In this document: positions 2,362-32,695 of the stretch, piece by piece | Numbering within the stretch: position 1 is the stretch's first letter | Layout: every line of letters starts with the position of its first letter | Source: Verrucomicrobiia bacterium | Lineage (GTDB): Bacteria > Verrucomicrobiota > Verrucomicrobiia > Limisphaerales > JADLHS01 | Length of the DNA: 64,000 nucleotides | Direction: 5' to 3' | NCBI GenBank assembly: GCA_026125285.1 | Contig: JAHCLO010000035.1 | Location: 1-64,000, forward strand | Position numbers and translations under genes: made by a program | Notes under the pieces: generated by a model | Databases searched by the model: none | Told to the model about the DNA's origin: nothing | The model's input: only the letters and a program-made list of their open reading frames with translations

Positions 2362-2778
2362 TCAAACCACTTCCCACGGCCAGAAAGCAAAAGGAAAGGT
2401 GTATGAATTGTCGTCAAGAATTAGATGCCCTCCTTCTTCGCGCCGCGTCGTCTTCCGTCTTCCGTCTTCCGTCTTCCGCAGACGGCTCGGCGGGCAGCCG
2501 AAATGCTTCTTGAAAGCCAGACTGAAATTCTCCTGGTGGTTGTAGCCCAATTTATCAGCCGTCTCTTGGACATTGAATCCGGCGATCAAGAACCGCCGAC
2601 CTTGGAGCATCCGCTCAACTTTCAACCATTCACGTGGGCATTGGCCGAGGTGTTCGTGAAAGTAGCGCTCCAGCATGGCCAACGAAACGCCGCAATTTGC
2701 CGCCAGTGTGGCCACGCACCAGCCGGCTTGCGCCGCGCGCTCCCGCCACTTCCAGATCTCATGCAACAGTTCGTTCAT
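2362..2778 (-). CDS. AraC-family DNA-binding domain protein (solo HTH)
   Basis: A 138-residue protein that is essentially only the AraC/XylS double helix-turn-helix. The first HTH reads TLAANCGVSLAMLERYFHEH and the second NVQETADKLGYNHQENFSLA, followed by FKKHFGCPPSRLRK, which matches the AraC signature. There is no ligand-binding or cupin domain, so signal sensing must come from elsewhere or be absent. The ATG overlaps the TGA of the O-antigen ligase-like gene (ATGA), so the pair is coupled. The last 35 or so residues after SRLRK are encoded through a 7-bp tandem repeat and are probably not part of the fold. It is likely a transcription regulator. The target is unknown. Confidence 0.8.
   Translation of the reverse strand: MNELLHEIWKWRERAAQAGWCVATLAANCGVSLAMLERYFHEHLGQCPREWLKVERMLQGRRFLIAGFNVQETADKLGYNHQENFSLAFKKHFGCPPSRLRKTEDGRRKTTRREEGGHLILDDNSYTFPFAFWPWEVV
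2450..2477. repeat. Heptanucleotide tandem repeat (GTCTTCC x4)
   Basis: Four perfect head-to-tail copies of a 7-bp unit lie inside the 3' part of the AraC-like coding sequence. Since 7 is not a multiple of 3, gain or loss of a unit would shift the frame of the C-terminal tail. Confidence 0.85.
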
Positions 2779-15950: not shown

Positions 15951-16219
15951 AAGAAGCCTTGAAGTGGTTATCGCTTCTGGTACTAGTTGGGACACAACTC
16001 GACGCTACTCAATGCGTTGCACCCGGTCAAGCGGGATTTTCCGAGATTCTACAATTGCAGTTGCTTAAGCTGAACATTCGCCCTCGCTGAGAAGGGTCGT
16101 CGGCCGGTTTCCGGTCTGTGGAAGTCGGCAGGCCTAGTCGGTCTAAGGCCAGCTTTCCGTTCGGTTGGAGTCTAAAACGAGGTTTTGGATTTCCGGCCTT
16201 CCCATCCGGGAGAGACTCT

Positions 16220-16390
16220 GCCGAATCCAGATTCGCGCTTTGAACCCCCGAACCGTAGCCGACGTGAGGAGGCGGACAACGCTGCTACTGAGGGGAATCC
16301 GCCTCCTCACGTCGGCGCACATGAAAAGCGAGGTCAAGACATAGTTTCGCCCCAGCGAAAGCCAGCTACGAGCGAAGGGTTCGGGGGGAG
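16220..16390. repeat. Dispersed palindromic element, family A (copy A1)
   Basis: The core palindrome at 16255-16316 (GTAGCC-GACGTGAGGAGGCGGA, loop, TCCGCCTCCTCACGTCGGCG) lacks one GCC compared with other copies. The left flank (16220-16254) and the segment at 16365-16390 (GCTACGAGCGAAGGGTTCGG) match, inverted, the flanks of the copy at 24622-24757. About 48 extra bases separate the core from the right flank. Confidence 0.85.
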
Positions 16391-16487
16391 ACAAAACGAT
16401 TTGATTTTTTTGAGGTTGACGTGATTGCCGACTTGGCTAACTTTGGCAAAACTATTTTAAGAGAAAAATAGTCGCACAATACCCACC

Positions 16488-19400
16488 ATGAAAACAAAAC
16501 TCCTATCTCTCCTGACGGTCTCGCTGCTGGCGGGAATGTCGTTGCCGGCCGCTAACATCGCTTGGGTCAGTTTCCACGCCGCCGACAATGCGCCTTCTTC
16601 GGCCGCTGCTGGCGCGGGCTTCACCAACGCACCCGACGCCGGCTACACGGCGTTGTTGACGGCCAATGGCCATACCGTGACGCGCTTTCTGCGCGTGGCG
16701 GACCTGCAAAACCTGCCGGACCTGATAACGGCGCTCAACACGAACGATCTGGTAATCGTCAGCCGTTCGGTGCCTAGCGGAGATTTTGATTCGCTGCCGG
16801 AAACTGCAGCTTGGAACACCAGCATCACGGTACCAATGATATCAGTCAATGGCTACATCAACCGTGCCAACCGGCTGGGGTTCAACACGGGTGACACGAT
16901 CCCCGACGTGAACAGCAGTCAGATGCGCTTGCGCGTACTTTATCGGGCGCATCCAATCTTTGCCGGGGTGTCGTTAAACGACACCAACCTCATGATCAAT
17001 CCTTACGCAGAACGGGTTACCTTTACGAATGCCACAACTGGGGCGACAACACTGCAGAACGGCATCTCCGTGGTAACCAGTGCCATGCGGGCCGGTGGGT
17101 CGCTGCTGGCCACCGTCGGCACGCCGGGTGATGCGGCGATTGGCGGAATGGTCATCGCGGAGTTTCCGGCGGGCGTTACGTCTCAACGCGGCGACGTGCT
17201 GGCCAACAAGCGCCTGGTGTTCCTCACGGGCAGTCGGGAATCGGGAATCACCTCGGAAGGTGCTGGCATTTATGATCTGCAGCCGGATGGCGCGCAGATG
17301 TTCTTAAACGCCGTCAACTATTTGACCACCCCGCAGGGTCCGCTCCCGGTGGAATGTACTACGCCTCTGGTGGGCGGGGTGAATCTCCCCGAGGGATCCC
17401 CTTGGACCTTCAACGCCGGAGTCGTCGGCGACACGCCAAGAACCTATCAGTGGTATAAAGACGGACAGCCGATTCCGACAGGTACTGAGGAGACTCTGGT
17501 CATTCCCAGCCTGACTTTAGCCGATGCTGGCGCATACCAATTGTTCGTCACCAATGCGGGCGGCTTCGCCTCCAGTACGATTGCCAGCCTGGCGTTTGCC
17601 ACCTTCCCGCCCGCCAGCATCACCAACGGTTTGATCTCTTACTGGCCCTTGAATGAGGTGCAAGGCAACAAGACATTTGATGTTGTCAGCACCTACGACA
17701 TGAGCCTCATCAACATGAGTGGTGCCGACATTGTTCCCGGCAAATGGGGCAACGCTTTTCAATTCAACGGCACCAATGCTTACCTTGAACGTATTAGCAA
17801 TCCGAGTGACGCCCTGCCCATTTATCAGCACCCTGACTTCACTGTCTCGCTCTGGGTCCTGGGCATCGCGCAAGGTGACCGACGCGTTTTCTCCGAGGGC
17901 TCCCTGACCGCTGGCAATCCGCTGTTCAACATCGGCACCCACAACACCGGAGCTGATGGTACTGTTGATATTTATATCCGCAACGACGCCGGGACCGTCG
18001 TTGGCGACCACCGCCACTCGCAGGCGTGGGCCTATGACGGAGCCAACTGGCATAACATCGTGTATGTCCAACGGGACATCGGTGGTGGCAATATGAATGC
18101 ACAACTCTGGGTGGATGGAGTGCTGGATCCAGTGGTCATCACCCCAGTACGTCCAATGACGGTGCAAACCACGACCATTGGTGCCATCCGGCGAGCCGCG
18201 GCGTCGGCTTGGTTTAACGGCATGATTGACGACGTAGCCGTTTGGAATCGGGCGCTTTCTCCGGATGAAATTCAGATTCTGCAAGTGACCGCCATCACCA
18301 ACCCGCCGGTGCGGCTCATACCCTTGGCGATCAACAGATTTCAGTCTGACGTGCCAGCCGTGGTCGCGGGCGGCTCGACCACACTGCGCTGGGAGGTCAG
18401 CCGGGATGTGACGCAGGTCACAGTCAACGGGGCAGATTTGACGGCTAGTACGGTTTTCGGCTCTGGATCGCTTTCCGTGACCCTGAACGCGTTCACAAAC
18501 TACGTGCTGACGATCAGCCGGGGAGTGGACACGCTCTCCGCGACCACCAGCGTGGCCGTGGTGGATGGCGTCAACCCCGGGTGGGCCTTGCTGGATAACT
18601 TTGACCAGACACCCCTCGGCATCCTGTCGGCCGCTGGCTATTGGAGGGATGCCACCGGCAATTCTGCCCAAGTGGTGGACACCAACGCCAACCACACTCT
18701 GCGTACGGCCACCGGTAACAGCATCTCCTTCCTGAATCTGCAAAACCTGTCCGTGAACGAAAACCAGGCCAGGTCATTGTTCTTCCGCCTGATCCCAGGT
18801 GCGGATAACGCGTCCGGCGTCACGAATATCGTCGGCCTCTCGGACAAGAGCCAGCGTGGCTATGGCGACGCGTATCAGAACCTCGGTCCGGTGCTCTACG
18901 TGGCGGCGTTCACGAACGAACTCGCCGGCGTCCTGACCAATGGTTGGTATATCGGCGCCCGCAATGGTTTTGCCGGTTTCAACACCAGCAACCCGATAGA
19001 TTACCTGGCCGAGCCGCTCGAAGCTGGTGCGGTGTACAACGTCTGGATTGACGTCACCAATGCGCCGCTGGATCAGTACTTCCAGGATTTGACCACGGTG
19101 GATACGTTTACCGTGTATCTCCAGAAGCTGGGTGATCCCACGCGCACGGTAGCTTTCCAGGACTACCGAAGTGATCGCGATCCCGAGTGGATTGACGTGG
19201 TGCTGGGCGGCATGTTGCCCGCGCTCGACCAAGTGGTGGTCCTGGGTAACAATGCCACCCACAGTGCCTTGTTTGACGACTTCTACCTGAGCAGCACGAC
19301 CTACAACGCCACCGTGCCGCGGCCTTATGGGTTCACGGCACCACAGCCTGGTTCACTCACCATCGAAGTGTCGGGTAACCAACTCGAGATTGGTTGGACC

Positions 19401-19523
19401 ACCGGCACGTTGCAGCATGCCCCGAGTGTGACCGGCCCCTGGACGGACGTGCCCGGCAATCCCAGTTCGCCGTACCTGGTTGCGCCCTCGGGTGACGCCA
19501 CGTTCTATCGCACGCGCCAGTAG
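16488..19523 (+). CDS. Large exported protein with Ig-like and LamG-like domains
   Basis: A 1011-residue protein with signal peptide MKTKLLSLLTVSLLAGMSLPA. Domain order: an N-terminal region of about 270 residues (NIAWVSFHAADN ... DLVIVSRSVPSGDFDSLPET) resembling an amidotransferase/ThuA-like fold; an Ig-like domain at about 285-365 (YQWYKDGQPIPTGTEETLVI ... DAGAYQLFVTNAGG); a LamG/concanavalin domain at about 380-600 (LISYWPLNEVQGN ... FTVSLWVLG ... WFNGMIDDVAVWNRALSPDE); a second jelly-roll-like part; and a C-terminal beta domain ending in FYRTRQ. It is likely a surface or matrix binding protein. It is transcribed away from the preceding minus-strand gene and ends at a strong terminator. 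Confidence 0.88.
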   Translation: MKTKLLSLLTVSLLAGMSLPAANIAWVSFHAADNAPSSAAAGAGFTNAPDAGYTALLTANGHTVTRFLRVADLQNLPDLITALNTNDLVIVSRSVPSGDFDSLPETAAWNTSITVPMISVNGYINRANRLGFNTGDTIPDVNSSQMRLRVLYRAHPIFAGVSLNDTNLMINPYAERVTFTNATTGATTLQNGISVVTSAMRAGGSLLATVGTPGDAAIGGMVIAEFPAGVTSQRGDVLANKRLVFLTGSRESGITSEGAGIYDLQPDGAQMFLNAVNYLTTPQGPLPVECTTPLVGGVNLPEGSPWTFNAGVVGDTPRTYQWYKDGQPIPTGTEETLVIPSLTLADAGAYQLFVTNAGGFASSTIASLAFATFPPASITNGLISYWPLNEVQGNKTFDVVSTYDMSLINMSGADIVPGKWGNAFQFNGTNAYLERISNPSDALPIYQHPDFTVSLWVLGIAQGDRRVFSEGSLTAGNPLFNIGTHNTGADGTVDIYIRNDAGTVVGDHRHSQAWAYDGANWHNIVYVQRDIGGGNMNAQLWVDGVLDPVVITPVRPMTVQTTTIGAIRRAAASAWFNGMIDDVAVWNRALSPDEIQILQVTAITNPPVRLIPLAINRFQSDVPAVVAGGSTTLRWEVSRDVTQVTVNGADLTASTVFGSGSLSVTLNAFTNYVLTISRGVDTLSATTSVAVVDGVNPGWALLDNFDQTPLGILSAAGYWRDATGNSAQVVDTNANHTLRTATGNSISFLNLQNLSVNENQARSLFFRLIPGADNASGVTNIVGLSDKSQRGYGDAYQNLGPVLYVAAFTNELAGVLTNGWYIGARNGFAGFNTSNPIDYLAEPLEAGAVYNVWIDVTNAPLDQYFQDLTTVDTFTVYLQKLGDPTRTVAFQDYRSDRDPEWIDVVLGGMLPALDQVVVLGNNATHSALFDDFYLSSTTYNATVPRPYGFTAPQPGSLTIEVSGNQLEIGWTTGTLQHAPSVTGPWTDVPGNPSSPYLVAPSGDATFYRTRQ

Positions 19524-19549
19524 GCGAAGTTCGGACAGTGTAAATTCGC

Positions 19550-19582
19550 AAGCGGCTGACCTCGGGTCAGCCGCTTTTGTTT
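19550..19582 (+). terminator. Intrinsic terminator after the Ig/LamG protein
   Basis: A perfect 12-bp stem (AAGCGGCTGACC, 19550-19561, with 19565-19576) has loop TCG and is followed by TTGTTTGG, 27 bp beyond the stop codon. Confidence 0.9.
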
Positions 19583-19687
19583 GGTCATCGTGATTTCCGG
19601 GAGCACGTGGGTGGTTGAGTTGCGCGATCAAACGCGAGCGCCTGACGGGATTATGATCGCCGATGTAATGCCTCGTTTTCTTCCGGC

Positions 19688-19820
19688 GGTAGCGCAGACT
19701 TGTAGTCTGCTGTATCGCCGAATTTCATTCGGCAACCGGTCAAACGAACGGAATCGCCGGCCTTGGCGAAGCATTGCGGATCGAAAATCCGCGATAGAGC
19801 AGCATGGAATCCTGCGCTAC
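19688..19820. repeat. Dispersed palindromic element, family C
   Basis: The ends GGTAGCGCAG (19688-19697) and CTGCGCTAC (19812-19820) are inverse to each other, and inside them CTGCTGTATCGC is inverse to GCGATAGAGCAG. ATTTCATTCGG and CGGATCGAAAATCCG form inner hairpins. It is non-coding and lies between the Ig/LamG gene and rnpB. Confidence 0.75.
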
Positions 19821-19871
19821 GAGCATTCACGTCGGGGAGGAATGCGGCATCACTTGCTACCTTACGCAGTT

Positions 19872-20291
19872 GGTTTTGGAAGGGCTGTAAGCCGAATTCT
19901 GTCTGCCGCGAATTGCTCCGCGGGAGAGAATCATTTATCTCAGCAGCCATACCCGGAACCCGTTCCACTTTCGCGGACACTGGAGCGGGCCGCTCCGGGG
20001 TTCCCTATTTGGCCTTGCACCCGATGGGGTTTTCCGTGCCCCGCCGATTACTCGACGAGCGGTGGTCTCTTACACCACCTTTTCACCTTTTCCCGCTCCG
20101 TTGCCGGAACGGGTAGTCTGTTTTCTGTGGCACTGTCCGTTGGGACGGCTCGCGCCGTCACCGCCCGCGTGTATCCTGAAGTCCGCCTCCTTGCGTCAGC
20201 GGCCCGAGGTTACGCGGCATCGCGCCCTGAGGTGTTCGGACTTTCCTCCCCCGGCTCACGCCGGGAGCGATTCTCCACCCTTCCAAAACCA
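19872..20291 (-). ncRNA. rnpB: RNase P RNA
   Basis: On the minus strand this encodes the catalytic RNA of RNase P, which trims 5' leaders from tRNA precursors. Visible bacterial type A landmarks, read 5' to 3': GGAGGAAAGTCCGAACACC near the 5' end (plus-strand positions around 20230-20250), the internal ACAGAAAACAGACTACC, GGTGAAAAGGTGGTGTAAGA, GCACGGAAAACCCCATCGGG, and the 3' ATAAATGATT ... GACAGAATTCGGCTTA segment. The 5' GGTTTTGGAAGGG and the 3' CCCTTCCAAAACC pair as helix P1, which sets the ends at about 20291 and 19872. The 5' end is only 24 bp past the stop of the symporter gene on the same strand. Ends are approximate by a few bases. Confidence 0.96.
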
Positions 20292-20314
20292 CCGGGAAGA
20301 TATGTCAGCATTCC

Positions 20315-22441
20315 TTACTTGTATAGTCTCTCCAGCTTCACCGGTTGATCCCGCCGCCGGCCGACGACATTGCGGAACGCGGTTTCCTCCATTGCCACTG
20401 TCATTTGATCCCCTGCGTCCACGATTTCCGCCACAATGACATGCGCGGAGTGCAAGCCGCCGGTCCACCAGCGCGAATCGGTGATGTAAAGCAAATCGCC
20501 TACGTGCGCGTCCAGTTTGCACGCGAGCGCGGAAGAAATCCGGATCCCGGCGAGTTCGGCGGTGCCGAAGTGCGGGAGTTCGGCGTGGAGCAATTGGGGC
20601 GTGGCCAATGCCCGCGTCACCTGGCTTTCGCGTCCGGGAGAGCCTTTGTAATGGCGCAGGGCATCGCCAATGGTGCCCCAGACCAGCCCGCGCTGCTTTT
20701 CCAGCGGTTCCGGCCGGGTCAGCAGCGTGACTACGACGCCAATCACGGCGCACAAGACAGTGCCATAGCAAGCGCGCATGAATTGCTGTTCTCTCATCCC
20801 GGCGAGAAAATCCCACACGGTATGACCGCCGGGCACGCCGTGAGCAAAAGGAATGATCACCGCCGGAAACACCATGGAGATTCCCATGAGCAACAGCCCG
20901 GCTACCAGGGTCCAGAGCGCGGCCACACGGGTGAACCGGCGCCAGAAAACCGCCAGCAGCAAAGTCACCACCATGGGCGGAGTGACGGCAGCGGTAAACG
21001 CCGCATGAGCTACATAAATGGATTTGAACTGCATGAACACGGGCACCATCAGCACGCCAATCACCGTCACGGAAATGGCGGCGATGCGGGCGGCGCGGAG
21101 CAGTTGCTTGTCCGTGGCTTTGGGGCGGAGGTAAGCCCGGTAGAGATCATTCACCGTCACGGCTGATACCGCGGTGATCAGCGTATCCACAGTGGACATG
21201 AGTGCAGCCGTCATCGCCGCGAGGATCAAGCCGAAGATGCCCGGATGACTGAGCAACTCTGCCGCGATGAAGAAAGCTTCGCGGGCCTGAACTTCCGGCA
21301 GGATGCCAGCGTTGGTGAAAGCGCGCGCCACCAAGCCACCGGAAGACACGACCAGCGCGCCGATGAACATCAGTCCCACCATCAAAACCGTCGTCGCCTT
21401 CCGGCTTTCGTCCAGCGACTTCGCGGCCATGAAGCGCATGATGATCCCCTGATTCAGAAAGTAGAACATTGCCGAGTTGGCGAACGCGTCCTGCCAGAAA
21501 ATGCCCACGGCCGGAAACTCCGGGTCTTCGTTGAAATTTGGAAAAGCCAGGCGTGCGGCTCGCGGCAGATTCAACCAGAGCAGATCAAACCCGCCGATGT
21601 AGGAAGCCCCCAGCACGAAAATCAGGAGCCCAACGAGCAGCAGGAAAACGCCGTTGATCAGATCGTTCATGATCACGCTACTCTGGCCTCCAAACGTGAC
21701 GTACGAGGCTGAAATCATCGCCACCCCCAAGGCCGCGAGCGGGATTGGCCAGCCAACCATGATGTTCACCACCACGCCCATCGTATAAAGATTCACCCCG
21801 ACATAGCCGACCAGATAAATCAGCAAATAGATGGTGGCCCACAACCGGACCTGTGGATCAAAGCGCCGGCCAAAGTACTCGGGCACCGAAATAATGCGCG
21901 AGAAATAGAGAATCGGCAGCCAGCCGAAGACCAGCAGCGGAAACCAGATCCAATCGTTCCAATACGCCTGGCTCGCGCCCAGCCCGTACTTGTAACCAAT
22001 CTCGCTGTACTTGACGAAACTGTAGGAGCCGATGGTGGTAGCGACCAGACTGATGGCAATCAGCCACCAGGCGAAACGTTGTCCGCCAAAAAAGAAATCC
22101 TTGGTCGTCTTCTGCCGGCGGCCAAAGTACATCCCGTTGAAGAGAATCAAGCCGAAGTAGAGCGCCACGATGGCATAATCCAGGGCAGTGCCGCGAATGT
22201 GTCCCACGTCCTTGAGCACCGCCTCAGCGCCGCCGGTGTATTCCTTCGCTGGCAGAGCCGACATGGGCGCGTATTGCAGCCAGCCTTGCAGCATGGCGAA
22301 GAACATCAGCACGGCCAGACTGATCAGCAGATTCCGCAGTTTGCGGCCCGTGAACCCGACGTAATCGTGCTTTACGGCGAAGTACATACCGATCAGGAAA
22401 AAGACTCCCCCCACCAGGTAAGTGTAAAAATATGCGTCCAT
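20315..22441 (-). CDS. Sodium/solute symporter (SSS family)
   Basis: A 708-residue membrane protein starting at the ATG at 22441 (MDAYFYTYLVGGVFFLIGMY). The upstream open extension to 22594 is rejected because it is not membrane-like. About 13 hydrophobic helices are visible, with SSS motifs such as DFFFGGQRFAWWLIAISLVA, EYFGRRFDPQVRLWATIYL, TFGGQSSVIMNDLINGVFLL and LILAAMTAALMSTVDTLITA. It would use the sodium gradient to import a small organic solute (sugar, amino acid or similar). The substrate is not determinable. After the last helix a soluble tail of about 130 residues is present (from about RPEPLEKQRGLVWG). A beta-rich C-terminal part (GDLLYITDSRWWTGGLHSAH) may be regulatory. rnpB follows immediately. 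Confidence 0.92.
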   Translation of the reverse strand: MDAYFYTYLVGGVFFLIGMYFAVKHDYVGFTGRKLRNLLISLAVLMFFAMLQGWLQYAPMSALPAKEYTGGAEAVLKDVGHIRGTALDYAIVALYFGLILFNGMYFGRRQKTTKDFFFGGQRFAWWLIAISLVATTIGSYSFVKYSEIGYKYGLGASQAYWNDWIWFPLLVFGWLPILYFSRIISVPEYFGRRFDPQVRLWATIYLLIYLVGYVGVNLYTMGVVVNIMVGWPIPLAALGVAMISASYVTFGGQSSVIMNDLINGVFLLLVGLLIFVLGASYIGGFDLLWLNLPRAARLAFPNFNEDPEFPAVGIFWQDAFANSAMFYFLNQGIIMRFMAAKSLDESRKATTVLMVGLMFIGALVVSSGGLVARAFTNAGILPEVQAREAFFIAAELLSHPGIFGLILAAMTAALMSTVDTLITAVSAVTVNDLYRAYLRPKATDKQLLRAARIAAISVTVIGVLMVPVFMQFKSIYVAHAAFTAAVTPPMVVTLLLAVFWRRFTRVAALWTLVAGLLLMGISMVFPAVIIPFAHGVPGGHTVWDFLAGMREQQFMRACYGTVLCAVIGVVVTLLTRPEPLEKQRGLVWGTIGDALRHYKGSPGRESQVTRALATPQLLHAELPHFGTAELAGIRISSALACKLDAHVGDLLYITDSRWWTGGLHSAHVIVAEIVDAGDQMTVAMEETAFRNVVGRRRDQPVKLERLYK

Positions 22442-22698
22442 GATCAGACTTCTCGCAGCCCATTGAACCGGGAATGACGGCAAAAGCCAATCACGGAACC
22501 GTTTCAACTGGCCAATAATGCCGACAGTCGTGCTGCCAGTAAACGAACAAGCGACCACGCAAACTTGATAGTGGTTGCTTCCCGATGCCTCCACATCGGA
22601 TTCAAGCGCGATCAGCAGTGCGGTGTGATGAATTGGTGTGCCAGCGCTTCGTCAATCACTCCCGCCACTCGCGCCCGCAGTTAGCGCGGTGACCAAGA

Positions 22699-22745
22699 AG
22701 CGACGCGCCCTACCACGTTGCGCGATTTGTTTGTCGCAGTATTAG
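22699..22745. repeat. Family B repeat, right-half fragment (copy B4)
   Basis: GCGACGCGCCCTACC followed by TTTGTCGCAGTATT repeats the right half of the element at 58531-58675. The left half is missing. The surrounding spacer (22442-22796, about 355 bp) shows nothing else. Confidence 0.65.
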
Positions 22746-22796
22746 CCCAAATTCCCGTGTCGTCTGAGGGAGCGGCTTGATCCCGCATTCCGCCGC

Positions 22797-24146
22797 TTAC
22801 TCCTCAATCCGATAGAGGTGCGTTTTGGTTCGCAGGAACAGAGCTTTGCCCGAAGCTGCCGGCGAGGCCATGAAACCGTCGTCCAGGGTGTTGGTGGCCA
22901 GCACCTCCAGCTTGCGCCCCGGTTTGAGCACGGTGGTTGTGCCTTGCTGATCGAAGAAATAGAGCCGGCCATCCGCATAGATCGGCGAGGCCGCATACTT
23001 CCCCCCGACCCGCTCCGTCCAGACGGTCTTGCCCGTATCGGCTTCCAGACAGGTGATGAAGCTTTCTTCTGCGGCCGTGTAAATCAGTCCGTCCACGAGA
23101 ATGGGTGACGCGTATTTGCCGACGTGCGTCTTGAGCTTCCAGACGACGTGCGTATCCGTAACGTCACCTTCCCCGTCCGTCTTCACCGCCCAAAGTTCCT
23201 TCTTCGTCAAACCGGTGACGATGTAGGCGAGGCCGTTGTGAAACAGAGGCCGGGGCGCCACCGACCAATCCGGGTATTGCACCATCCAAAGCTCGCGTCC
23301 GGTACGCGGGTCGTAGCCGTAGGCGGCTTTGGCGCCGGGGCTGATCATCTGCGGCTTTCCCGCCGCGTTCACAATCAGCGGCGTGCTGTGGGCCTTGCGC
23401 AAATCCCCATCCCGCGCCATGGGACCGGGAATGTGTTCGTCATTCCACACCACCGAACGATCAGTCTTCCAGACGGTTTGGCCGGTCTGTTTGTCGAGCG
23501 CGACATGATATTGCAGATCGGCCCCATCCATGGTGAGGATCAGCAATTTCTCAAACGAAACCAGTGAGGACGACGACCCGCGGTAGTGCCGGCAGGGAAG
23601 ATCGTTTCGTTTCCACAGAACTTTGCCAGTCCGGGTGTCGAGGCAGGCCGTGCCCGGACTGCCGAAGTGAACATACACCCGGCCCGGCTCAATCAACGAT
23701 GAAGGTGTGGCATAGCAGTTCATGGACGCGCCGTTCCCCAGCGGCTCCGGATCATCCGTATGAAACACCTTTTCGTTGAAGAGAATCTTCCCCGTCTGCG
23801 CATCAAGGCCGATGGCGAAATAATCGTGGCCCTCATCCGTGGCCGTCGTGACCCACACCTGCCCGCCCAACACCACTGGCGCCGACCAGCCGCGATGCGG
23901 AATCTCCGTTTTCCACCTGACATGGTTCGTTTCGCTCCAGTGCAACGGAAAGCCCCGGAGCTTGGTGTCGCCCGGCGCCGAAACGCGCCCATCCCCCGAC
24001 GGGCCGCGAAACTCAGGCCAGTCCGCGCGGCCTACGAACGCACCGACAGTCAGGAGCAACAGTATCAGGAGGAAACGGGCGCGGGATTGCTGGCGGCGAT
24101 CCGAAACCTTGCCGGGACAGAAACAGTGGCTTGTGTTGAAATTCAT
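22797..24146 (-). CDS. Exported PQQ-like beta-propeller protein
   Basis: A 449-residue protein from the ATG at 24146. A GTG at 24185 is possible but adds little. The N-terminal segment ARFLLILLLLTVGAFVGRA is a signal peptide, followed by the DWPEFRGPSGDGR motif that opens this verrucomicrobial and planctomycetal family. Blades with the PQQ signature (ALDKQTGQTVWKTDRS, LDTRTGKVLWKR, LEADTGKTVWTERVGGKYAA) give a propeller of about seven or eight blades, as in BamB and quinoprotein dehydrogenases. No catalytic or PQQ-ligand residues are evident, so a scaffolding or binding function outside the inner membrane is more likely than dehydrogenase activity. No partner gene is adjacent. Confidence 0.9.
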   Translation of the reverse strand: MNFNTSHCFCPGKVSDRRQQSRARFLLILLLLTVGAFVGRADWPEFRGPSGDGRVSAPGDTKLRGFPLHWSETNHVRWKTEIPHRGWSAPVVLGGQVWVTTATDEGHDYFAIGLDAQTGKILFNEKVFHTDDPEPLGNGASMNCYATPSSLIEPGRVYVHFGSPGTACLDTRTGKVLWKRNDLPCRHYRGSSSSLVSFEKLLILTMDGADLQYHVALDKQTGQTVWKTDRSVVWNDEHIPGPMARDGDLRKAHSTPLIVNAAGKPQMISPGAKAAYGYDPRTGRELWMVQYPDWSVAPRPLFHNGLAYIVTGLTKKELWAVKTDGEGDVTDTHVVWKLKTHVGKYASPILVDGLIYTAAEESFITCLEADTGKTVWTERVGGKYAASPIYADGRLYFFDQQGTTTVLKPGRKLEVLATNTLDDGFMASPAASGKALFLRTKTHLYRIEE

Positions 24147-24420
24147 GGGCGCAGCCTGCGGTGAGAGCCGAAACAAGTCAATCACGAGGGATACAGCCCC
24201 AGTGCAATCAGGTCAGCAACGTCCGTCTCCACCCGCGCAAATGCCCGAGCAACTGATTGACGGTGTGACGTTCCAGCTTTTGACCAAGTTGTTGCGTGTC
24301 GAGGATCAGTGCGTTTTCCGGCGGCCACCAGATCGCTGCGGCTTCTCCGCTGTTATGCCTCGAGTGTGACTGATGGCGACAACTCCGACTGGGGCGTCCG
24401 TTCTATTGATGGTGCGGCGG

Positions 24421-24921
24421 CTATATCTGCACAATCCAGCACGTCGCGAGCGTCCGCAGTTCATTGATTGGAATTGCCAAGCGATCAAAGAGTCTTCGGA
24501 TCTCCGCTTCATCTCGATAGGGCTGGGTTTCCGGCGTGGCCTGGATGAGGTCGAGTCCGCGCCGACGCATCGCGTAGCGGATCATCACGGAACTGAAATC
24601 CACGCCGTCGCATTGGAATCCCTCCCCCCGAACCCTTCGCTCGTAGCCGCCGACGTGAGGAGGCGGACAACGTTGCACCTCAGGGGAATCCGCCTCCTCA
24701 CGTCGGCGGCTACGGTTCGGGGGTTCAAAGCGCGAATTTGGATCCGGCGAAATCTTTCCCTGCAACTCGGCCACCAGCAGCCCTTGCCCTGCGCCGACCA
24801 CCAGCACGGATGACCGGACGTCACCCGTGATCTGCCGCAGACTCGCCAAATCGAGATAGTTGTCCTCAACGGCGGCATGATGCTCCGCCAGCGCGTCCCA
24901 GAATCGGCTTGGCTCGTGCAT
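24421..24921 (-). pseudogene. Class I SAM-dependent methyltransferase, interrupted by repeat and internally deleted
   Basis: The frame begins like a methyltransferase: MHEPSRFWDALAEHHAAVED, then motif I SVLVVGAGQGLLVAELQ. At this point about 45 codons (GKISPDPNSRF ... YERRVRGE) are encoded by the family A repeat at 24622-24757. The methyltransferase sequence then resumes with GFQCDGVDFSSVMIRYA, the expected acidic strand-2 region. Soon after GLDLIQA the sequence jumps to TPETQPYRDEAEIRRLFDRL, which looks like a distal C-terminal segment. The central region with the remaining cofactor and substrate sites is therefore missing. Without the insert only about 120 residues remain, roughly half the usual length. 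The frame is intact, but the product is unlikely to be active. Confidence 0.65.
24622..24757. repeat. Dispersed palindromic element, family A (copy A2), inside the methyltransferase frame
   Basis: Perfect 25-bp arms at 24643-24667 and 24689-24713 surround a 21-bp loop. The left flank (CTCCCCCCGAACCCTTCGCT) and right flank (GGTTCGGGGGTTCAAAGCGC) recur inverted around the copy at 16220-16390. It lies in frame inside the methyltransferase remnant. On the minus strand it is read in the frame giving SRRREEA. Confidence 0.92.
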
Positions 24922-24972
24922 GGGTTTGCGTCTGGGAGCGCATCATGACCGATGCCCTGGCCGGGAGGAACC

Positions 24973-27447
24973 TCATTCCTTCCACAGTCGAAAGAACTTC
25001 CGCTCCGCGCTGGCGGGAACGGTGACGGAGATTTGCGCGCCATTGGTCACGGGTAGTTGAGCCACGGGCAACCACGCACCGGGCAGCGCTGGATTTGTGC
25101 TTTCCTGCAATTGAAATCCCGGCGCACCTACGGGCCACGAGAGGGTCACCAACGCATTGGATCGCACCAGGTTCAGCGAGGGCGGAACCGACTGACCGAA
25201 AAGCCGCGCCACCCGTGGGCGCAACACACCTTTGACCGTCGTGAAGTTGCCGCCGATGAGAATGTTTCCATCGGACTGCACCGCGATGGAACGCACTGCC
25301 CCGCCCCATGACGTGCCCTGATTGAAACCGGCGTCGAGAGTGCCGTCGGCATTGCGCCGCGTGATGCCGTAAATGTAGTTCGTGCCACTCAAGAAGTAGT
25401 AGTCACCGCCCACCAGCACTTTCCCGTCTGGCTGCAAGGCAACTGATTGAACCGCGCCGCTCATGCCCGGTCCGTAATTAAAACTACCGTCCACACTGCC
25501 ATTGGCATTGAGGCGCAGAACACCACTGTGGTTCGGGGCTTGGAGGACGTAGAAGGCGCCTCCGAGAACCAGCTTGCCATCCGGTTGCAGCGCGATGGAT
25601 CGGACTGAACCAATCGGGCCAGCGTTGAAAGCGAGGTCAAGTGAGCCATCGGGGTGCAACCGGGAGATACCTTCGACCCCGCCGACTACGAGTTTGCCAT
25701 CTGGCTGCAAAATCATGCAGCTCTCGGAATAGTTCGTGCCGGAAGTGAAACTCCAATCCCGGCTGCCGTTCGTCTCGAATCGGCCGAGGAACGGACGGAG
25801 TACGTCGTAGGACCATTCATCCCCGTAAACCGTGGTCCAAGCATGTCCACCGACAAGCACCTTGCCGTCTGGCTGGACCAGGACGGAGGTGGCTTCAACG
25901 GATTGCCAACAACCATAGTTCGGCAGGCAATCTCCTGGCTGGACGAAGGGCCACAGGTCCGGCCAGAAACCGCTGTCCCAACTGCCGTCGGGATTGAACC
26001 GCGCGACCGAACCGGAGGGCACACCATTGGTCGGCGCGAAGATACCAGTCGCCAACACCTTGCCATCCGGCTGCAGGGTGATTGATCGAATGTACGAGGC
26101 GGTCGCCAAAAAATTGATGTCGGGATGGAAAGCGTCGTCCACGCTGCCATCAGGATTGAGCCGGGCGAGACCGGTGCGGGCGAGTCCACCAACTGTGGTG
26201 AAGGTCCCGCCAATCAGCAGCTTGCCATCGGGCTGTAACGCGGTGGTCAGGACGCCACTGTCAATGGAACCGCCGGGATCAAAACTGGCGTCGAGACTGC
26301 CACCGATATTGAGCCGCGCGATGCCATGGCGTTTCGTGCCATGGACGGAAGTGAACGCTCCACCGATGAACATTTTCCCGTCCGGCTGAACGGCAACCGC
26401 GACCACGCTGTTGCCGGCGCTGGTGCCCGGATCGAAACCCGTGTCGTGCGTGCCATCGCCGTTGAGTCTGGCCAGATTGATCCAGTTCGTGGCGTTGAGC
26501 GCGAAGGTTCCGCCGACCAGCACTTTGCCGCCCGCCTGCGTGGCGAGAGAAATGACGGTGCTGTAGTTGAGCGCGTCACCCGTGAGGAGTGTGCCGGGAT
26601 TGAAACTGCTGTCCCTGGTGCCATCGTCATTGAGCCGGGCGATGCCGTGGCTGATCGTGCCGTGGCACCAGAAAAAGTTCCCGCCGATGAACACCTTTCC
26701 GTCCGGCTGCAATGCCATGGTATAGACCCAGTCGCTGGGGCCGGCGCCGGGATCGAAACTGCCATCCAGACTCCCGTTGGCATGGAGTCGCGCAACGTGG
26801 TTGCGGTTGGTGCCATTCACCGCCTGGAATCCGCCCGCGATCAGCACCCGACCATCCGGTTGCAGCGCGATGGCATAAACGCCATAAGCGCCCGTGCCGG
26901 GATCGAAGCTGGTGTCGAGGCTGCCGTTGGTATTGAGCCGGGCGATCCCGACGCGGTTCGTGCCATTGACGACGGTGAACCCGCCACCGATAAGCACCTT
27001 GCCATCCGGTTGAACGGCGATGGAATAAATCCCCTCATCAAATGCCGCGATGCTGGCGGAAAAGGTGTTGTCCAAACTTCCGTCGGCATGAAGCCGAACC
27101 AGGCCGCCATAGGTGTTCACCAGCACTTTGCCATCGGCCTGCAACGCGAACAGTCCGCCGCCGGCCACCGCCGGATTGAAACTGTTGTCACCGCTGCCGT
27201 CCGCGTTGAGCCGGGCGAGTCCGGGGCGCGAGAGACCTTTGACGGTGGTGAACGAACCGCTGATGAGCACCTTGCCATCCGGTTGCAATGCGATGGTGGA
27301 CACACCGCCATTGACGCCCGAACCGGGATCAAAGGACAGGTCCACGTCGCCCGCCGCGGCGTGCGCATGAAAGCAGGGAATGGTGACGAGCTGCAGCAGC
27401 AGGCTGCCGATCAACAAGCGACTGCGGAACAGGTTTGAGATTCTCAT
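24973..27447 (-). CDS. Exported delta-60 repeat protein (paralogue 1)
   Basis: An 824-residue protein with a signal peptide (MRISNLFRSRLLIGSLLLQL ... HAHAA). After it comes GDVDLSFDPGSG, then more than a dozen delta-60 repeats (TIGR02608 type) of the pattern ALQPDGKVLIGG-F-T-V-G--R-GIARLN-DGS-D-SF-PG. These fold as propeller blades in a cell-surface protein. Around residue 500 the spacing is broken by a longer unit with two Cys (FVQPGDCLPNYGCWQSVEAT), also found in the neighbour. The C-terminal segment (FQLQESTNPALPGAWLPVAQ ... FFRLWKE) is a terminal beta domain nearly identical in the neighbour. The gene ends 50 bp before the methyltransferase remnant. The ligand is unknown. Confidence 0.92.
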   Translation of the reverse strand: MRISNLFRSRLLIGSLLLQLVTIPCFHAHAAAGDVDLSFDPGSGVNGGVSTIALQPDGKVLISGSFTTVKGLSRPGLARLNADGSGDNSFNPAVAGGGLFALQADGKVLVNTYGGLVRLHADGSLDNTFSASIAAFDEGIYSIAVQPDGKVLIGGGFTVVNGTNRVGIARLNTNGSLDTSFDPGTGAYGVYAIALQPDGRVLIAGGFQAVNGTNRNHVARLHANGSLDGSFDPGAGPSDWVYTMALQPDGKVFIGGNFFWCHGTISHGIARLNDDGTRDSSFNPGTLLTGDALNYSTVISLATQAGGKVLVGGTFALNATNWINLARLNGDGTHDTGFDPGTSAGNSVVAVAVQPDGKMFIGGAFTSVHGTKRHGIARLNIGGSLDASFDPGGSIDSGVLTTALQPDGKLLIGGTFTTVGGLARTGLARLNPDGSVDDAFHPDINFLATASYIRSITLQPDGKVLATGIFAPTNGVPSGSVARFNPDGSWDSGFWPDLWPFVQPGDCLPNYGCWQSVEATSVLVQPDGKVLVGGHAWTTVYGDEWSYDVLRPFLGRFETNGSRDWSFTSGTNYSESCMILQPDGKLVVGGVEGISRLHPDGSLDLAFNAGPIGSVRSIALQPDGKLVLGGAFYVLQAPNHSGVLRLNANGSVDGSFNYGPGMSGAVQSVALQPDGKVLVGGDYYFLSGTNYIYGITRRNADGTLDAGFNQGTSWGGAVRSIAVQSDGNILIGGNFTTVKGVLRPRVARLFGQSVPPSLNLVRSNALVTLSWPVGAPGFQLQESTNPALPGAWLPVAQLPVTNGAQISVTVPASAERKFFRLWKE

Positions 27448-27490
27448 GGGTTGACGGTGGTTGATTTTGCAACGGGTGGTGCGGCTGAAA

Positions 27491-29737
27491 CTACTCCGAC
27501 TTCAGCCGAAAGAACTTCCGCTCCGCGCTGGCGGGAATGGTGACGGAGATTTGCGCGCCGTTCGTGACGGGAAGCTGAACGACCGGCAACCAGGCATTCG
27601 GCTGTGCGAGGTTTGTGCTTTCCTGCAACTGAAAGCTCAACCCGTTCACGGGCCACGAAATAGTCATCAACGCGTTCGACCGCGCGATGCTCAACGTCGG
27701 CGCGGAATCACCGTAAAGCCTCGCTACATACGGCCGCACCACACTGTTGACCGTGGTGAAATCGCCGGCGATGAGGACATTGCCATCGGCTTGCAGCGCG
27801 ACGCAACGAACCATTCCGTTCGCTCCGGTGCCCGGATGAAAACTGAGGTCCAGACTGCCATCGGCATTGAGGCGGGCAATGCGATTGCGGGCCGTGCCAT
27901 TGACGGCGAAGAAATCGCCGCCGATAACCACCTTCCCATCCGGCTGCACCGCGAGCGAAGTAATCCCAAATGTTCCACCGCCGGGATCGAAACTGTTGTC
28001 CAGCGTCCCGTCGGCATCGAGTCGAGCGATCCCGTAGCTCACGTTCGTGCCGCGAAGGGTGCTGAATCCGCCCGCGAGCAGCACCTTGCCATCGGCTTGC
28101 AGCGCTACTGCGGAAACCCACGGATTATCAATCCCGGAATTGAAACTGGTGTCCGGACTTCCATCCGTGTGAAGTCTGGCAATCCCTGAATAGGTGCGGC
28201 CAACAACGACCTTGCCGTTCGGCTGCACCGCGAACGCCGTCACCTCGGGCACATCGCGTGTCTGCCCAATCAACGGCTGAAAACTCGTGTCGCGACTTCC
28301 GTCCGCATGCACGCGGGCAAGAAAGCAGCGATGGCTGATGAACGGGTGGTTATCGAACAAGTCGAGAACGATGGTGGCGGTGTAGCCGCCGACGAGCACC
28401 TTTCCATCCGGCTGCACGAGCACGGTGGTAGCCGTCGAGGACTGCGAACACTCGAAGTCCGGCGGGCCAGCCCAGCAATCTCCGGCCTGAATCACGAACG
28501 ACAGATCCGGATTGAAGCTGCTGGAAACAAGAGTGCCGTCCACGCGCCCAGCCGCATTGAGCCGGTCGCGTCCGTATCGGTTCGTGCCATTGAGGAAGGT
28601 GAACGCCCCGCCGATCAACACTTGGCCATCCGCCTGCAGAACGAGAGCAGAAACCGGACTCTCCACTCCGCGGATCACCCGGAAACTACTGTCCAGACTG
28701 CCGTCAGCGTTGAGCCGCGCCACCCGGTTGCAGTTTGTGCCATTGACCGAAGTGAAAGCGCCGGCAATGAGCACCTGCCCATTCGACTGCAACGACATGG
28801 ATGCTACTGCACCGTTCGCTCCCGTGCCGGCGTTGAAACTGGAGTCCAAACTGCCATCGGCATTGAGCCTGGCGAATCCCCGAACAATCACCTTGCCATC
28901 GGGCTGCAACGCGAGTGGAGATCCGCCTACTCCGGCGGCGGGAATGAAAGTGGCATCCAGAGCTCCATCCGCGTTGAGACGGGCCAACGCGTTCCGGTCC
29001 GTGCCGTTGACGGTGTTGAACGGACCGCCGATGAGCAACTTGCCGTCAGGCTGCGGCACGATCGAATCAACGCCCAGACCAGCTCCAATGCTGGTATTGA
29101 AATTCGTGTCCCGAATCCCGTTGGCATTGAGCCGGACTATTCCTCGGACCAGGCCATAGCCCACATAGCCGACCACGACTTCGCCGTTTGGCTGCACTGC
29201 CAAGGTTCTCACCTGGGGAATCTGTTCGACTGCCAGACCCAGGTCTCCGATGAACGGAGTAAAACTGGTGTCGTGACTGCCATCGGCATTGAGGCGGGTC
29301 ACAAAGCTCGAAAAGGTGTTTTGGCACTCCTCTTCGGGACAGTTACGAGCCACCATTCCACCCACGAGCACTTTGCCATCCGATTGCACTGCCACCGCCA
29401 CCGCCTCGGCATCATTGAAAAAGCCGTTCTGAAATAGATGGGTCCAATCCGGGATGAAGCTGTCCGAAACGAAAGCGGTGTCCCGGCTTCCGTCTGTGTT
29501 GAGTCGGACGCTTGCGTAGCGGTTGGTGCCGTTGATGAACGTCAGCGGGCCGCCGACGAGCACTTTGCCATCTGATTGCACCGCGATGGCCGCCACAGCA
29601 TTGGTGATAGGCGAACCGGGGTCAAACGAGAGGTCCACGTCGCCGGGCGCGGCGGTCGCGTGAAAGCAGAGCACGCTCGCTTGCAGCAGCAGGCTGCCGG
29701 CAAGAATCAGCGATTCAGGTGCATACGGAGTTTTCAT
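27491..29737 (-). CDS. Exported delta-60 repeat protein (paralogue 2)
   Basis: A 748-residue protein, ATG at 29737, signal peptide MKTPYAPESLILAGSLLLQA followed by SVLCFHATAAPGDVDLSFDP. It contains about a dozen delta-60 repeats (VAVQSDGKVLVGGPLTFING, ALQADGKVLLAGGFSTLRGT). Two repeats are expanded: one early with ARNCPEEECQ and one in the middle with IQAGDCWAGPPDFECSQSST, matching the expanded Cys unit of the neighbouring paralogue. The terminal beta domain (LQESTNLAQPNAWLPVVQLP ... FFRLKSE) is almost the same as in the neighbour 43 bp downstream, so this is a tandem duplication with later divergence. A surface binding role is inferred. No enzyme motif is present. Confidence 0.92.
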   Translation of the reverse strand: MKTPYAPESLILAGSLLLQASVLCFHATAAPGDVDLSFDPGSPITNAVAAIAVQSDGKVLVGGPLTFINGTNRYASVRLNTDGSRDTAFVSDSFIPDWTHLFQNGFFNDAEAVAVAVQSDGKVLVGGMVARNCPEEECQNTFSSFVTRLNADGSHDTSFTPFIGDLGLAVEQIPQVRTLAVQPNGEVVVGYVGYGLVRGIVRLNANGIRDTNFNTSIGAGLGVDSIVPQPDGKLLIGGPFNTVNGTDRNALARLNADGALDATFIPAAGVGGSPLALQPDGKVIVRGFARLNADGSLDSSFNAGTGANGAVASMSLQSNGQVLIAGAFTSVNGTNCNRVARLNADGSLDSSFRVIRGVESPVSALVLQADGQVLIGGAFTFLNGTNRYGRDRLNAAGRVDGTLVSSSFNPDLSFVIQAGDCWAGPPDFECSQSSTATTVLVQPDGKVLVGGYTATIVLDLFDNHPFISHRCFLARVHADGSRDTSFQPLIGQTRDVPEVTAFAVQPNGKVVVGRTYSGIARLHTDGSPDTSFNSGIDNPWVSAVALQADGKVLLAGGFSTLRGTNVSYGIARLDADGTLDNSFDPGGGTFGITSLAVQPDGKVVIGGDFFAVNGTARNRIARLNADGSLDLSFHPGTGANGMVRCVALQADGNVLIAGDFTTVNSVVRPYVARLYGDSAPTLSIARSNALMTISWPVNGLSFQLQESTNLAQPNAWLPVVQLPVTNGAQISVTIPASAERKFFRLKSE

Positions 29738-29777
29738 GATAATCTTTCAGTGATGGAGATGGTTGCGAGTACTCCGC

Positions 29778-30968
29778 TCACGGCAGTTCCAGCGTGACCA
29801 GTCGGCCAGTGGCCAATTCGGTAACTACCAGGCGGGCGCCGCGACGATCCAGCACCATGCTGGTCGGAGTCGTGAGGCAATCTGCCAGGACAACCGGTTG
29901 TGCGTCCGGCGCCGCGAAGTATTGGAGACGTCCTGGGCCCGGCACTGGGAAAGTCAGGTTGTGTTCCAGAGTCAGATAATCTTCGTCGCATCCTCGGAGT
30001 GGAGTGATGTCAATGGCGGAGGAAAGACCGGTGAGTAGTGGCGTGATGGCTCCCGTGCGCGGATCCACATGTTGAACTTGTGAATAACCCGGGATAAAAA
30101 ATGGCCCACCGCTCAACAGTGTCACCGCCAGTTGATTGCCATCCCAGCGAATGCTCGTCGGCACGTTCTCGATGAAGGGCGGACCCGGAAGCGGGTTGGG
30201 CGTGGGAGCAAAGGATGCGAGCGTTTCGTACTCGGCGCTGAGGACGTTTACCTTATGCACGTTGTTGAAGCCCGCGTCCACGATGTAGAGGTGGCGGCCG
30301 TGACCAACGACGCCGTACGGATGCGAATGCCGGACGTTGTCTGCGAAGTTCGGGCGCAGCTCCGGCGCGTAGTCCGGGAAGTCCGCGACCAGTTGGATGA
30401 GCATGCGCTGTCCCCGGGCATCCGCGCGGATCAACCGTTGACCGGCTTTCAACGCTTGATGATCGGCCAGAGTTAACGTGACGCCAGTGGTTGCCTCCTC
30501 CATTGCCGCGCTGAAATGGATCGCCAGCACGGAACTGAAGAGCGGTGAAGACGGTGTGGGATTGGCGCGCTCGGTGACGGGAACGGGGCCGGCCAAGGTG
30601 ACATCGCACTGGCCGTTCAAAACGAAGAGGGTCCGGCCCTCGAGCCAAACGCCGGTGGTGCCGTTGAAGTCTCCCACGAAGGTGCGGGCCGAGGGCAATC
30701 CTTCCAACAGGGTGCGCCGCTTGCCGCGCTGATCCACGATGGACACCCGACCGTGGTTGGGAATTTCCGGTCCATTCTCCGCCACAATGAAATCGCCACG
30801 CGGCGTCTGGATGATTTTGCTCGGGGCCAGCAGGCCCGTGGCGAAGGTCTTGACGCCGGGACAAGGAGTCTGCGCCGAGCCGGCAAGAGCTGCACCGAGC
30901 AGACCGAGTGTGAGAGCGATTATTTGAGTCCGACGACTGAGATGTGAATTGGCCGATGTTCTTTTCAT
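29778..30968 (-). CDS. ScyD/ScyE-family exported propeller protein
   Basis: A 396-residue protein with signal peptide (TQIIALTLGLLGAALAGSAQ). It matches the ScyD/ScyE family in layout: VKTFATGLLAPSKIIQTPRG followed by GDFIVAENGPEIPNHGRVSI, HSHPYGVVGHGRHLYIVDAG, and PTSIRWDGNQLAVTLLSGGP. In cyanobacteria the family belongs to the scytonemin locus, but many bacteria carry homologues of unknown role. Here there are no scytonemin genes, so only a six-bladed NHL-like propeller in the cell envelope is supported. The upstream region carries the same TGAGCC/GGCTCA inverted repeat as the GloVer gene, 49-75 bp before the start codon, suggesting shared control. Confidence 0.85.
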   Translation of the reverse strand: MKRTSANSHLSRRTQIIALTLGLLGAALAGSAQTPCPGVKTFATGLLAPSKIIQTPRGDFIVAENGPEIPNHGRVSIVDQRGKRRTLLEGLPSARTFVGDFNGTTGVWLEGRTLFVLNGQCDVTLAGPVPVTERANPTPSSPLFSSVLAIHFSAAMEEATTGVTLTLADHQALKAGQRLIRADARGQRMLIQLVADFPDYAPELRPNFADNVRHSHPYGVVGHGRHLYIVDAGFNNVHKVNVLSAEYETLASFAPTPNPLPGPPFIENVPTSIRWDGNQLAVTLLSGGPFFIPGYSQVQHVDPRTGAITPLLTGLSSAIDITPLRGCDEDYLTLEHNLTFPVPGPGRLQYFAAPDAQPVVLADCLTTPTSMVLDRRGARLVVTELATGRLVTLELP

Positions 30969-31012
30969 AGCTTTGTCTGGATTGGTTTCGAATGTTTGCT
31001 GCTTTCCTTCTC

Positions 31013-31060
31013 GTCATGAGCCAAAACGTGGTGAAAAGGCTCAGGTGATTTGATTTTGTT
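31013..31060 (-). promoter_or_regulatory. Inverted repeat TGAGCC-N15-GGCTCA upstream of the ScyD-like gene
   Basis: TGAGCC (31017-31022) and GGCTCA (31038-31043) are separated by 15 bases. The flanks CA and GATTT are conserved with the copy before the GloVer gene (32596-32622), which has identical spacing. It may be an operator. The site also lies just past the GloVer stop codon at 31081. Confidence 0.5.
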
Positions 31061-31080
31061 CTTAGCGTCACGCTGATGCT

Positions 31081-32583
31081 CTATTGCGCCTTCAGACGAA
31101 AGAACCGCTGTGGCTCGGACGCAGGATTGGTGACGGTGTTCTGGCCGTTGACGACCGTCGGCATCAGAGAATTGGCGCTCCAAACCGGTGATGCCAGGTT
31201 GGTGGTGGATTGCAGAATGAACCCGGTGTAATCGAACCCGGCGACATTCGTCGGCCAGGTCAAAATCACATTGGCTGCGGAACGGGTGATGCTCAGTTGC
31301 GGCGTGAACGAGAGACGGAACACTGTGCCGTTGTCGAAGTTGCCGTAATACCTCGCCACTCCATACAGCGAGTTACCCACCAACGTCAGAGTGTCTGGAC
31401 CGCCTCCGTCGGTGTCATTGATGAAACGATGGAGAACTGTAAAACCTGAGCCGTCGGTGTTGAGCGCGAACACCGTGCCGCCACCAAAGCCGCCGCTTCC
31501 AATCGCTGCCCCGTAAAGGGTATTGCCCGACAGGATCAATGTGCCATTGGCGTAGTATCCATCGGTGGCATGATAGAAATCATGCAGGGTCGTGAAATCA
31601 CCGCCGTTGGTATTCAGAGCGAAGACCACGCCCTGGCCAAAAGCGCCGCCAGCCTCGGTCGTACCATACAGCGTGTTGTCAGATAAAACCAAACCGGCAA
31701 CGGGATTGACGCCATCACTGTTGGCGGAAAAAGGGTTGAGAACCGGATGGTAATCGGCTCGCGTAAAACTGTGCAGCGTCGTTAAGCCCGAGCCATCGGT
31801 GTTGACCTTGAACACGGTTCCTCGGGCGAACCGGCCACCGCCGATCGCCGTCCCGTAGAGCGCGTTGCCTGATAAAACCAGCCCGCCGTTCGGACGAATA
31901 CCGCCAATGTTGGTGTAGTTGCCAAAGATGGACTCTTCAGCACCGGCCGGAAAACTATGCACGGTTGTAAAGCCCGTGCCGTCGGTGTTCAGGGCGAACA
32001 CGGTGCCATTGCCGCCGCTGCCGCCATATTCTGTCGTCCCGTACAGCCGGTCGCCGGAGAGAATCAATCCCGCACGCGATCTGGCTCCGTCGCTGTTGGT
32101 GGCAAAAGGCTCAGGGCCAACGGTCGCCGAGAAGCGATGCAGGACGGTATAACCCGTGCCGTCGGTGTTCAGGGCGAACACGCCGCCGTTGCCCGATGGG
32201 CCGCCCACCCATGCGGTCCCATACAGCCGGTTGCCCGACAAAATCACCCCGCCCAGCGGTTGCGTTCCGTTGGTGTAGATGAAACTGTGCAGATTCGTAA
32301 GCCCTGAACCATCGGCATTCACGACGAACACCGTGCCGAAAGCCGAGCCGCCGGTGTTCGCGGTCCCGTACAAAACAGTGCCGGAAGCATTGGCAGCCAA
32401 CCTTCCCACTGGATAAGACCCGTCGTAGTTGGTGACCTCAGGCCGAGGCGTAAAGCTGTGCAAAACGGAGAAGGTCTGCGCCCTCACTGGGGTAAAGGGT
32501 ATCCCGGCGAGAACGGTGGTTAACGCGGCGAGGCCCAGGGCCATCCGGCGGCGATTGACCTTGATGTTGGCGTCTTTGCTCAT
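31081..32583 (-). CDS. Exported GloVer tandem-repeat protein
   Basis: A 500-residue protein from the ATG at 32583. The leader MSKDANIKVNRRRMALGLAA followed by LTTVLAGIPFTPVRAQ is a signal peptide. The body is a chain of about nine 45-60-residue GloVer repeats with the pattern LYGT---GG--G-GTVF-LNTDGSGFTVLHSF (for example LYGTTEYGGSGGNGTVFALN). The C-terminal segment (SAANVILTWPTNVAGFDYTG ... RFFRLKAQ) is the terminal beta domain seen on many exported proteins here. The family name reflects Gloeobacter and Verrucomicrobia. Its function is unknown, and a propeller on the cell surface is likely. It is transcribed divergently from the kinase gene across a region dense in TGAGCC half-sites. Confidence 0.9.
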   Translation of the reverse strand: MSKDANIKVNRRRMALGLAALTTVLAGIPFTPVRAQTFSVLHSFTPRPEVTNYDGSYPVGRLAANASGTVLYGTANTGGSAFGTVFVVNADGSGLTNLHSFIYTNGTQPLGGVILSGNRLYGTAWVGGPSGNGGVFALNTDGTGYTVLHRFSATVGPEPFATNSDGARSRAGLILSGDRLYGTTEYGGSGGNGTVFALNTDGTGFTTVHSFPAGAEESIFGNYTNIGGIRPNGGLVLSGNALYGTAIGGGRFARGTVFKVNTDGSGLTTLHSFTRADYHPVLNPFSANSDGVNPVAGLVLSDNTLYGTTEAGGAFGQGVVFALNTNGGDFTTLHDFYHATDGYYANGTLILSGNTLYGAAIGSGGFGGGTVFALNTDGSGFTVLHRFINDTDGGGPDTLTLVGNSLYGVARYYGNFDNGTVFRLSFTPQLSITRSAANVILTWPTNVAGFDYTGFILQSTTNLASPVWSANSLMPTVVNGQNTVTNPASEPQRFFRLKAQ

Positions 32584-32595
32584 TCCATCCCGACA

Positions 32596-32688
32596 TGAGC
32601 CAAATCCCGGCAAAAAGGCTCATGCGATTTATTATTTCGTAAAATGAGCCTTTTTGTGGTTGTATGGCGCATACATGGGCGATGAGCC
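32596..32688. promoter_or_regulatory. Cluster of TGAGCC half-sites between divergent GloVer and kinase genes
   Basis: TGAGCC occurs at 32596-32601, 32645-32650 and 32683-32688 and its inverse GGCTCA at 32617-32622. The first pair repeats the TGAGCC-N15-GGCTCA site found before the ScyD-like gene. The 12-base AAAAAGGCTCAT (32612-32623) and ATGAGCCTTTTT (32644-32655) form a second, larger perfect inverted repeat with a 20-base AT-rich centre. It may be an operator controlling both directions, or a hairpin in both leaders. Confidence 0.5.
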
Positions 32689-32695
32689 AACTGCC

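Follow-up and report, generated by a model that had tools for sequence, protein, structure and literature searches.

A GTAG palindromic repeat within a methyltransferase gene remnant, and its in-frame relatives in other genes of a verrucomicrobial genome

Introduction

Can a mobile palindrome enter the catalytic domain of an enzyme and be kept there as extra residues? The question is raised by a methyltransferase-like open reading frame in the window, by which we mean the whole 64,000-nucleotide stretch that was analysed, since a reading of this DNA from its sequence alone (hereafter the sequence-only reading) noticed a palindromic repeat lying in frame inside that gene and a relative of it inside a kinase gene, and took the pair as a sign that genes accept the element whatever the frame in which it is read. 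Here we describe the element, its host gene and its sister copies elsewhere in the genome, and weigh the ways in which it may have arrived.

Results

The repeat occupies 140 bases of the window (24621-24760) and is thus one to three bases wider on each side than the 24622-24757 originally proposed, although an element does lie there. Its ends are set by the consensus of 43 long copies, which drops sharply just beyond them, and genome matches extend over 24619-24763, the best of them being 95-96% identical and situated at unrelated loci. At its centre is a REPIN core in which GTAGCCGCCGACGTGAGGAGGCGGA is followed, after a spacer of 21 nt, by its own exact reverse complement; the GTAG tag and the CCGCC..GGCGG hairpin are exact in both halves, and the hairpin sequence is GTAGCCGCC. 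Folded as single-stranded DNA, the whole element reaches -50.2 kcal/mol, with a z-score of -7.4 against shuffled sequences. The kinship with the kinase copy is confirmed: the same core recurs there, read as VAADVRRR, in a loop that varies both in sequence and in length. An Rfam search over 16000-34500 matched RNase P only. The parts of the element and the related features are collected in Table 1. The window also holds, at 24973-29737, two adjacent DUF5122 beta-propeller-type proteins with internal repeats of about 153 nt.

Table 1. Coordinates of the repeat, its parts, its host gene and related copies (window positions, except the last three lines, which are positions within locus L134)
Feature	Positions	Strand	Basis
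Long repeat version: REPIN core with conserved extensions on both sides	24621..24760	+	Consensus of 43 long copies; genome matches
Left extension CCTCCCCCCGAACCCTTCGCTC; CCCCCGAACC within it pairs with the right extension	24621..24642	+	Folding; long-copy consensus
Left REP: GTAG tag and CCGCC...GGCGG hairpin, exact consensus	24643..24667	+	
21-nt spacer separating the two REPs	24668..24688	.	
Right REP, inverted, exact consensus	24689..24713	-	
Right extension, 47-nt tail, GGTTCGGGGGTTCAAAGCGCGAATYTGGAT..GGCGAARTCTCTCCC	24714..24760	+	Long-copy consensus
Methyltransferase remnant, ORF of 166 aa split by the element; its N-terminal and C-terminal parts align to an orthologue of 265 aa	24421..24921	-	
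Junction of the in-frame 143-codon deletion (...LIQA / TPETQPYR...)	24535..24541	-	
Degenerate, rearranged copy of the long version in non-coding context	16208..16390	-	
Short REPIN belonging to this family, carried in frame by a Ser/Thr kinase-TPR protein of 1027 aa	33683..33752	+	
UvrA-type ORF, first dimer	1952-2025		
UvrA-type ORF, half-site	2634-2658		
UvrA-type ORF, second dimer	4976-5049		

Within the host gene, VLVVGAGQGLLVAELQ and GFQCDGVDFSS border the element, which is in frame and translates as RSRRREEADSPEVQRCPPPHVGGYERRVRGE. Alignment with an orthologue from genome G008, about 55% identical to the window protein, gives a net gain of 44 residues, in good agreement with the roughly 45 codons first estimated; further on, the same alignment shows a loss of 143 residues (orthologue positions 84-226), a gap read from a 79-contig assembly. 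Five further genomes of the order yielded an orthologue. Of these orthologues, four include the N-terminal part and have an open frame of 265-297 codons across the whole protein, and, as anticipated, not one of the four carries extra residues at the insertion point; the fifth lacks that region. The deleted stretch holds 43 residues that are invariant across the four full-length orthologues, and the window protein reaches a Pfam E-value of only 0.077 compared with 3.6e-14 for an orthologue, so that a complete Rossmann methyltransferase domain is absent. Taking out the element consequently does not restore a continuous domain, a point that the sequence-only reading had proposed to check, and the ORF is, on the evidence of its alignment, a gene remnant whose decay is probably recent. 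The same-genus genome G001 has no such methyltransferase gene and yielded no sister-species empty site for it, so the exact insertion boundary rests on the other copies and on more distant orthologues.

The strongest competing account holds that the 44-codon insert is neutral or even useful within a minimised but working methyltransferase-like protein. The remnant does keep its natural start and stop and an open frame through both the insertion and the deletion, for which reason it may still give a residual product, and its retained parts depart from the orthologues at 8 of 47 invariant columns, a figure inside the leave-one-out range of the orthologues themselves. That both changes preserve the frame is nevertheless weak evidence of selection, as by our estimate this would happen about one time in nine by length alone. 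Against a working protein stand the loss of the greater part of the methyltransferase core beyond the second strand, a part that the orthologues possess, the position of the insert, which comes between motif I and the strand that follows it in the fold, and codon-model scores near zero in both flanks. We therefore consider tolerance in a functional enzyme quite unlikely at this locus; because the host has also lost most of its catalytic core, this copy is not, as had been suggested, evidence that the element is accepted.

The wider idea of in-frame acceptance fares better elsewhere in the genome. The repeat has about 100 copies there, some 40 of which were scored at 81-96% identity, and half-sites with up to three mismatches number 207 in the 7.16 Mb, compared with none for a reversed control pattern. 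Of the 320 genomes of the order, 134 have at least one half-site at the same threshold. Just 5 half-sites are present in the same-genus genome, which makes the expansion in the present lineage look recent. We surveyed 89 non-redundant sites out of roughly 110, of which 74 are REPINs, and called coding sequence around them with a simple three-periodic codon model trained on long ORFs. Most copies are extragenic (62 of 88 scored sites without coding sequence flanking on both sides). The remaining 26 are flanked on both sides by coding sequence of the same strand, and at 21 of them the element is in frame and open; one further site keeps the frame but contains a stop, and four are frame-shifted. 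Random insertion would be expected to give about 20% in-frame open sites, a figure derived from element length modulo three and from which frames of each element are open, so that the excess has a binomial p of about 5e-11, a value to be read with the caution that sites sharing one gene are not independent and that sampling leaned towards exact cores.

The use of two frames noted in the sequence-only reading is correct and general, but acceptance is not wholly independent of frame. Translation of the left arm gives VAADVRRR or SRRREEA; in the third frame the TAG contained in GTAG puts a stop into every REPIN (open fractions by frame 0.94, 0.87 and 0.00). The right arm is read in all three (NPPPHVGGY, RLLTSAAT and SASLPRRL).

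The hosts, named through NCBIfam, Pfam or alignment, are UvrA (two sites scored), AroA, a UbiD-family menaquinone decarboxylase, CcoG, an FdhF/YdeP-like oxidoreductase, a dihydrolipoyl-dehydrogenase-like flavoprotein, a carbamoyltransferase, a DNA polymerase IV-DnaE fusion, a GMC-type oxidoreductase, a BatA/VWA protein (two sites), Mfd (UvrB-interaction and RID domains), an FtsX permease and the Ser/Thr kinase of the window. In UvrA, Mfd, DinB-DnaE, AroA, UbiD, CcoG, the carbamoyltransferase and the kinase the insertions occupy variable loops or linkers; the insert is missing from orthologues of the same genus or family (in G001, G003 or G008), which vary in length or sequence at the same loop. 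A clean empty site is provided by the carbamoyltransferase of G001, whose flanks are 84% identical, and several other hosts look as though their native loop had been replaced or had diverged and not just been interrupted.

Some of these loci deserve mention in their own right. A 2040-codon UvrA-type ORF (L134, G000:C5:95367-102366) carries three in-frame copies of the repeat, an unusual density for one repair gene. At L124 (G000:C45:26993-31017) DNA polymerase IV and a DnaE-type polymerase appear to form a single open frame whose linker holds a REPIN; as G003, G008 and G001 likewise have the two parts together on a contig, in open frames of 1348-1613 codons, the fusion looks native. In the UbiD gene of G001 (L177, contig C126) a different repeat-like peptide, GQASRLSPSASENDFRDRRDACPT, is present at the loop that holds the REPIN in the genome under study, and loops of this kind may collect several repeat families.

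Long and short versions of the element differ markedly in where they reside. The 140-bp version is mostly intergenic and the 70-bp version, which is the core alone, is the one found in genes: of 43 scored sites of the former, 5 lie within genes, where the element is in frame at 2 and disruptive at 3, and of 35 of the latter, 20 do (18 in frame), a difference with a Fisher p of 2e-5, and coding flanks on both sides are missing at 38/43 and 15/35 sites, respectively. The methyltransferase copy, a long one, falls outside the 26 coding-flanked sites on account of the near-zero coding score of its flanks. A long version can nonetheless be in frame within an intact-looking gene, as in Mfd (L008), where it sits between the UvrB-interaction and RID domains. 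Three copies (L005, L030 and L020) adjoin the same flanking sequence, CCAATGCATGCTTCAACAAAAGAAAGGAG, and several further copies adjoin a GGGAGAGGGTCAGGGTGAGGG repeat, which suggests nesting in other repeats.

How the element moves is best approached through its ends. One possibility is that the whole 140-bp unit is a MITE, carried by a DDE transposase acting on its outer inverted repeats, and the defined ends conserved in 43 copies as well as the outer inverted repeat CCCCCGAACC/GGTTCGGGGG are what such a transposon would display. The target-site duplications that the sequence-only reading had proposed to seek at the borders are, however, lacking: across 41 long copies the longest word common to both ends averages 3.66 bases compared with 3.60 between unrelated ends. 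Moreover, the core alone is dispersed without outer ends at 36 of 89 sites, as if the unit that moves were the REP pair, and we accordingly hold a DDE-driven MITE to be very unlikely. Movement by Y1 transposases would be expected to leave no such duplication. At 65 Y1_Tnp loci (8 of the 11 in this genome and 57 in relatives), scanned over about 1.5 kb, no exact core of this REP was found; near matches were a variant REPIN about 1 kb off (L084) and a lone degenerate half-site about 380 bp off (L095), neither of them convincing as a RAYT partner locus. Other GTAG REPs do flank Y1 transposases in the same family. Y1 transposase genes with other GTAG hairpins nearby occur at L083, L088 and L038, one example being the inverted GTAGCCCACGGC..GCCGTGGG at L083 and L088, and at L095 such a gene has CAACCGCAACGCGGTTG palindromes.

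There is, finally, virtually no chance that we are dealing with an ordinary methyltransferase loop that happens to resemble the repeat, a notion refuted by the copies at unrelated loci, the best of which match this DNA at 95-96% identity, and by the want of extra residues at that place in any orthologue.

Discussion

The reading that we favour, and regard as very probable, is that the element is a REPIN in an amplified 140-bp version, probably moved by a Y1 transposase and sorted by selection, and that the methyltransferase copy sits in a gene that is not needed. According to this scheme a non-autonomous mobile palindrome would spread, probably as single-stranded DNA, with its hairpins mobilised by a transposase of the RAYT type; insertions would land widely, the element aiming at no reading frame, and selection would then purge the copies that break needed genes while those in frame within flexible loops persist. 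The methyltransferase copy would have persisted for a different reason, namely that its host gene was no longer required.

Taken alone, the methyltransferase copy is an ordinary case of a mobile repeat within a gene undergoing decay. Its interest lies in the natural test set to which it leads, with about twenty in-frame insertions in conserved genes whose orthologues in close relatives are without the element. A bolder proposal is that new protein loops and linkers arise continually from the REPINs of this order, such that in-frame copies are retained and change the proteins that carry them instead of being neutral; this proposal, which refers to the repair proteins (UvrA, Mfd and the DinB-DnaE fusion) and to the metabolic enzymes, we regard as unlikely. 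The repair-gene theme does recur among UvrA, Mfd and DinB-DnaE, yet long linker-rich proteins may simply be large targets, and whether repair genes are preferred hosts or merely targets of this sort is a question open to test.

With respect to known systems, a search of a literature library returned no paper on in-frame REPIN insertion in this order. Inverted REP pairs with a spacer, dispersed as a unit, are common to our family and to the REPIN/RAYT systems (Bertels and Rainey 2011, PMC3116915); the difference is that no cognate RAYT adjoins a copy at the 65 loci scanned in the present work. Rickettsia palindromic elements likewise insert in frame into conserved genes and are read as extra peptide, but they are set apart by their described tag, the R. 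conorii repeats RPE-4 and RPE-6 being of the CGTC type (PMC3733652) and ours of the GTAG type. The closest likeness is to the GTAG REP superfamily described in the PVC superphylum by Di Nocera et al. (2013, PMC3733652), who report in-frame REPs in Opitutus terrae, including both of its uvrA genes, as well as REPs in other repair genes elsewhere and in-frame REPs in DnaE2-type polymerases of other species. The GTAG tag, the short hairpin, head-to-head dimers, high copy number, occurrence in Verrucomicrobia and in-gene, in-frame copies, uvrA of O. terrae among them, are all shared, a likeness to the 24 GTAG REP families of that paper that holds by description and not by sequence. Our family thus echoes, in another verrucomicrobial group, the REPs in uvrA of Opitutus terrae and in error-prone polymerase genes elsewhere, and departs from them in its 140-bp amplified version and in the placement of 20 of 35 short copies within genes. 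Intragenic GTAG REPs are hence already known from Opitutus terrae (PMC3733652), and what is added here is the set of empty sites in close relatives.
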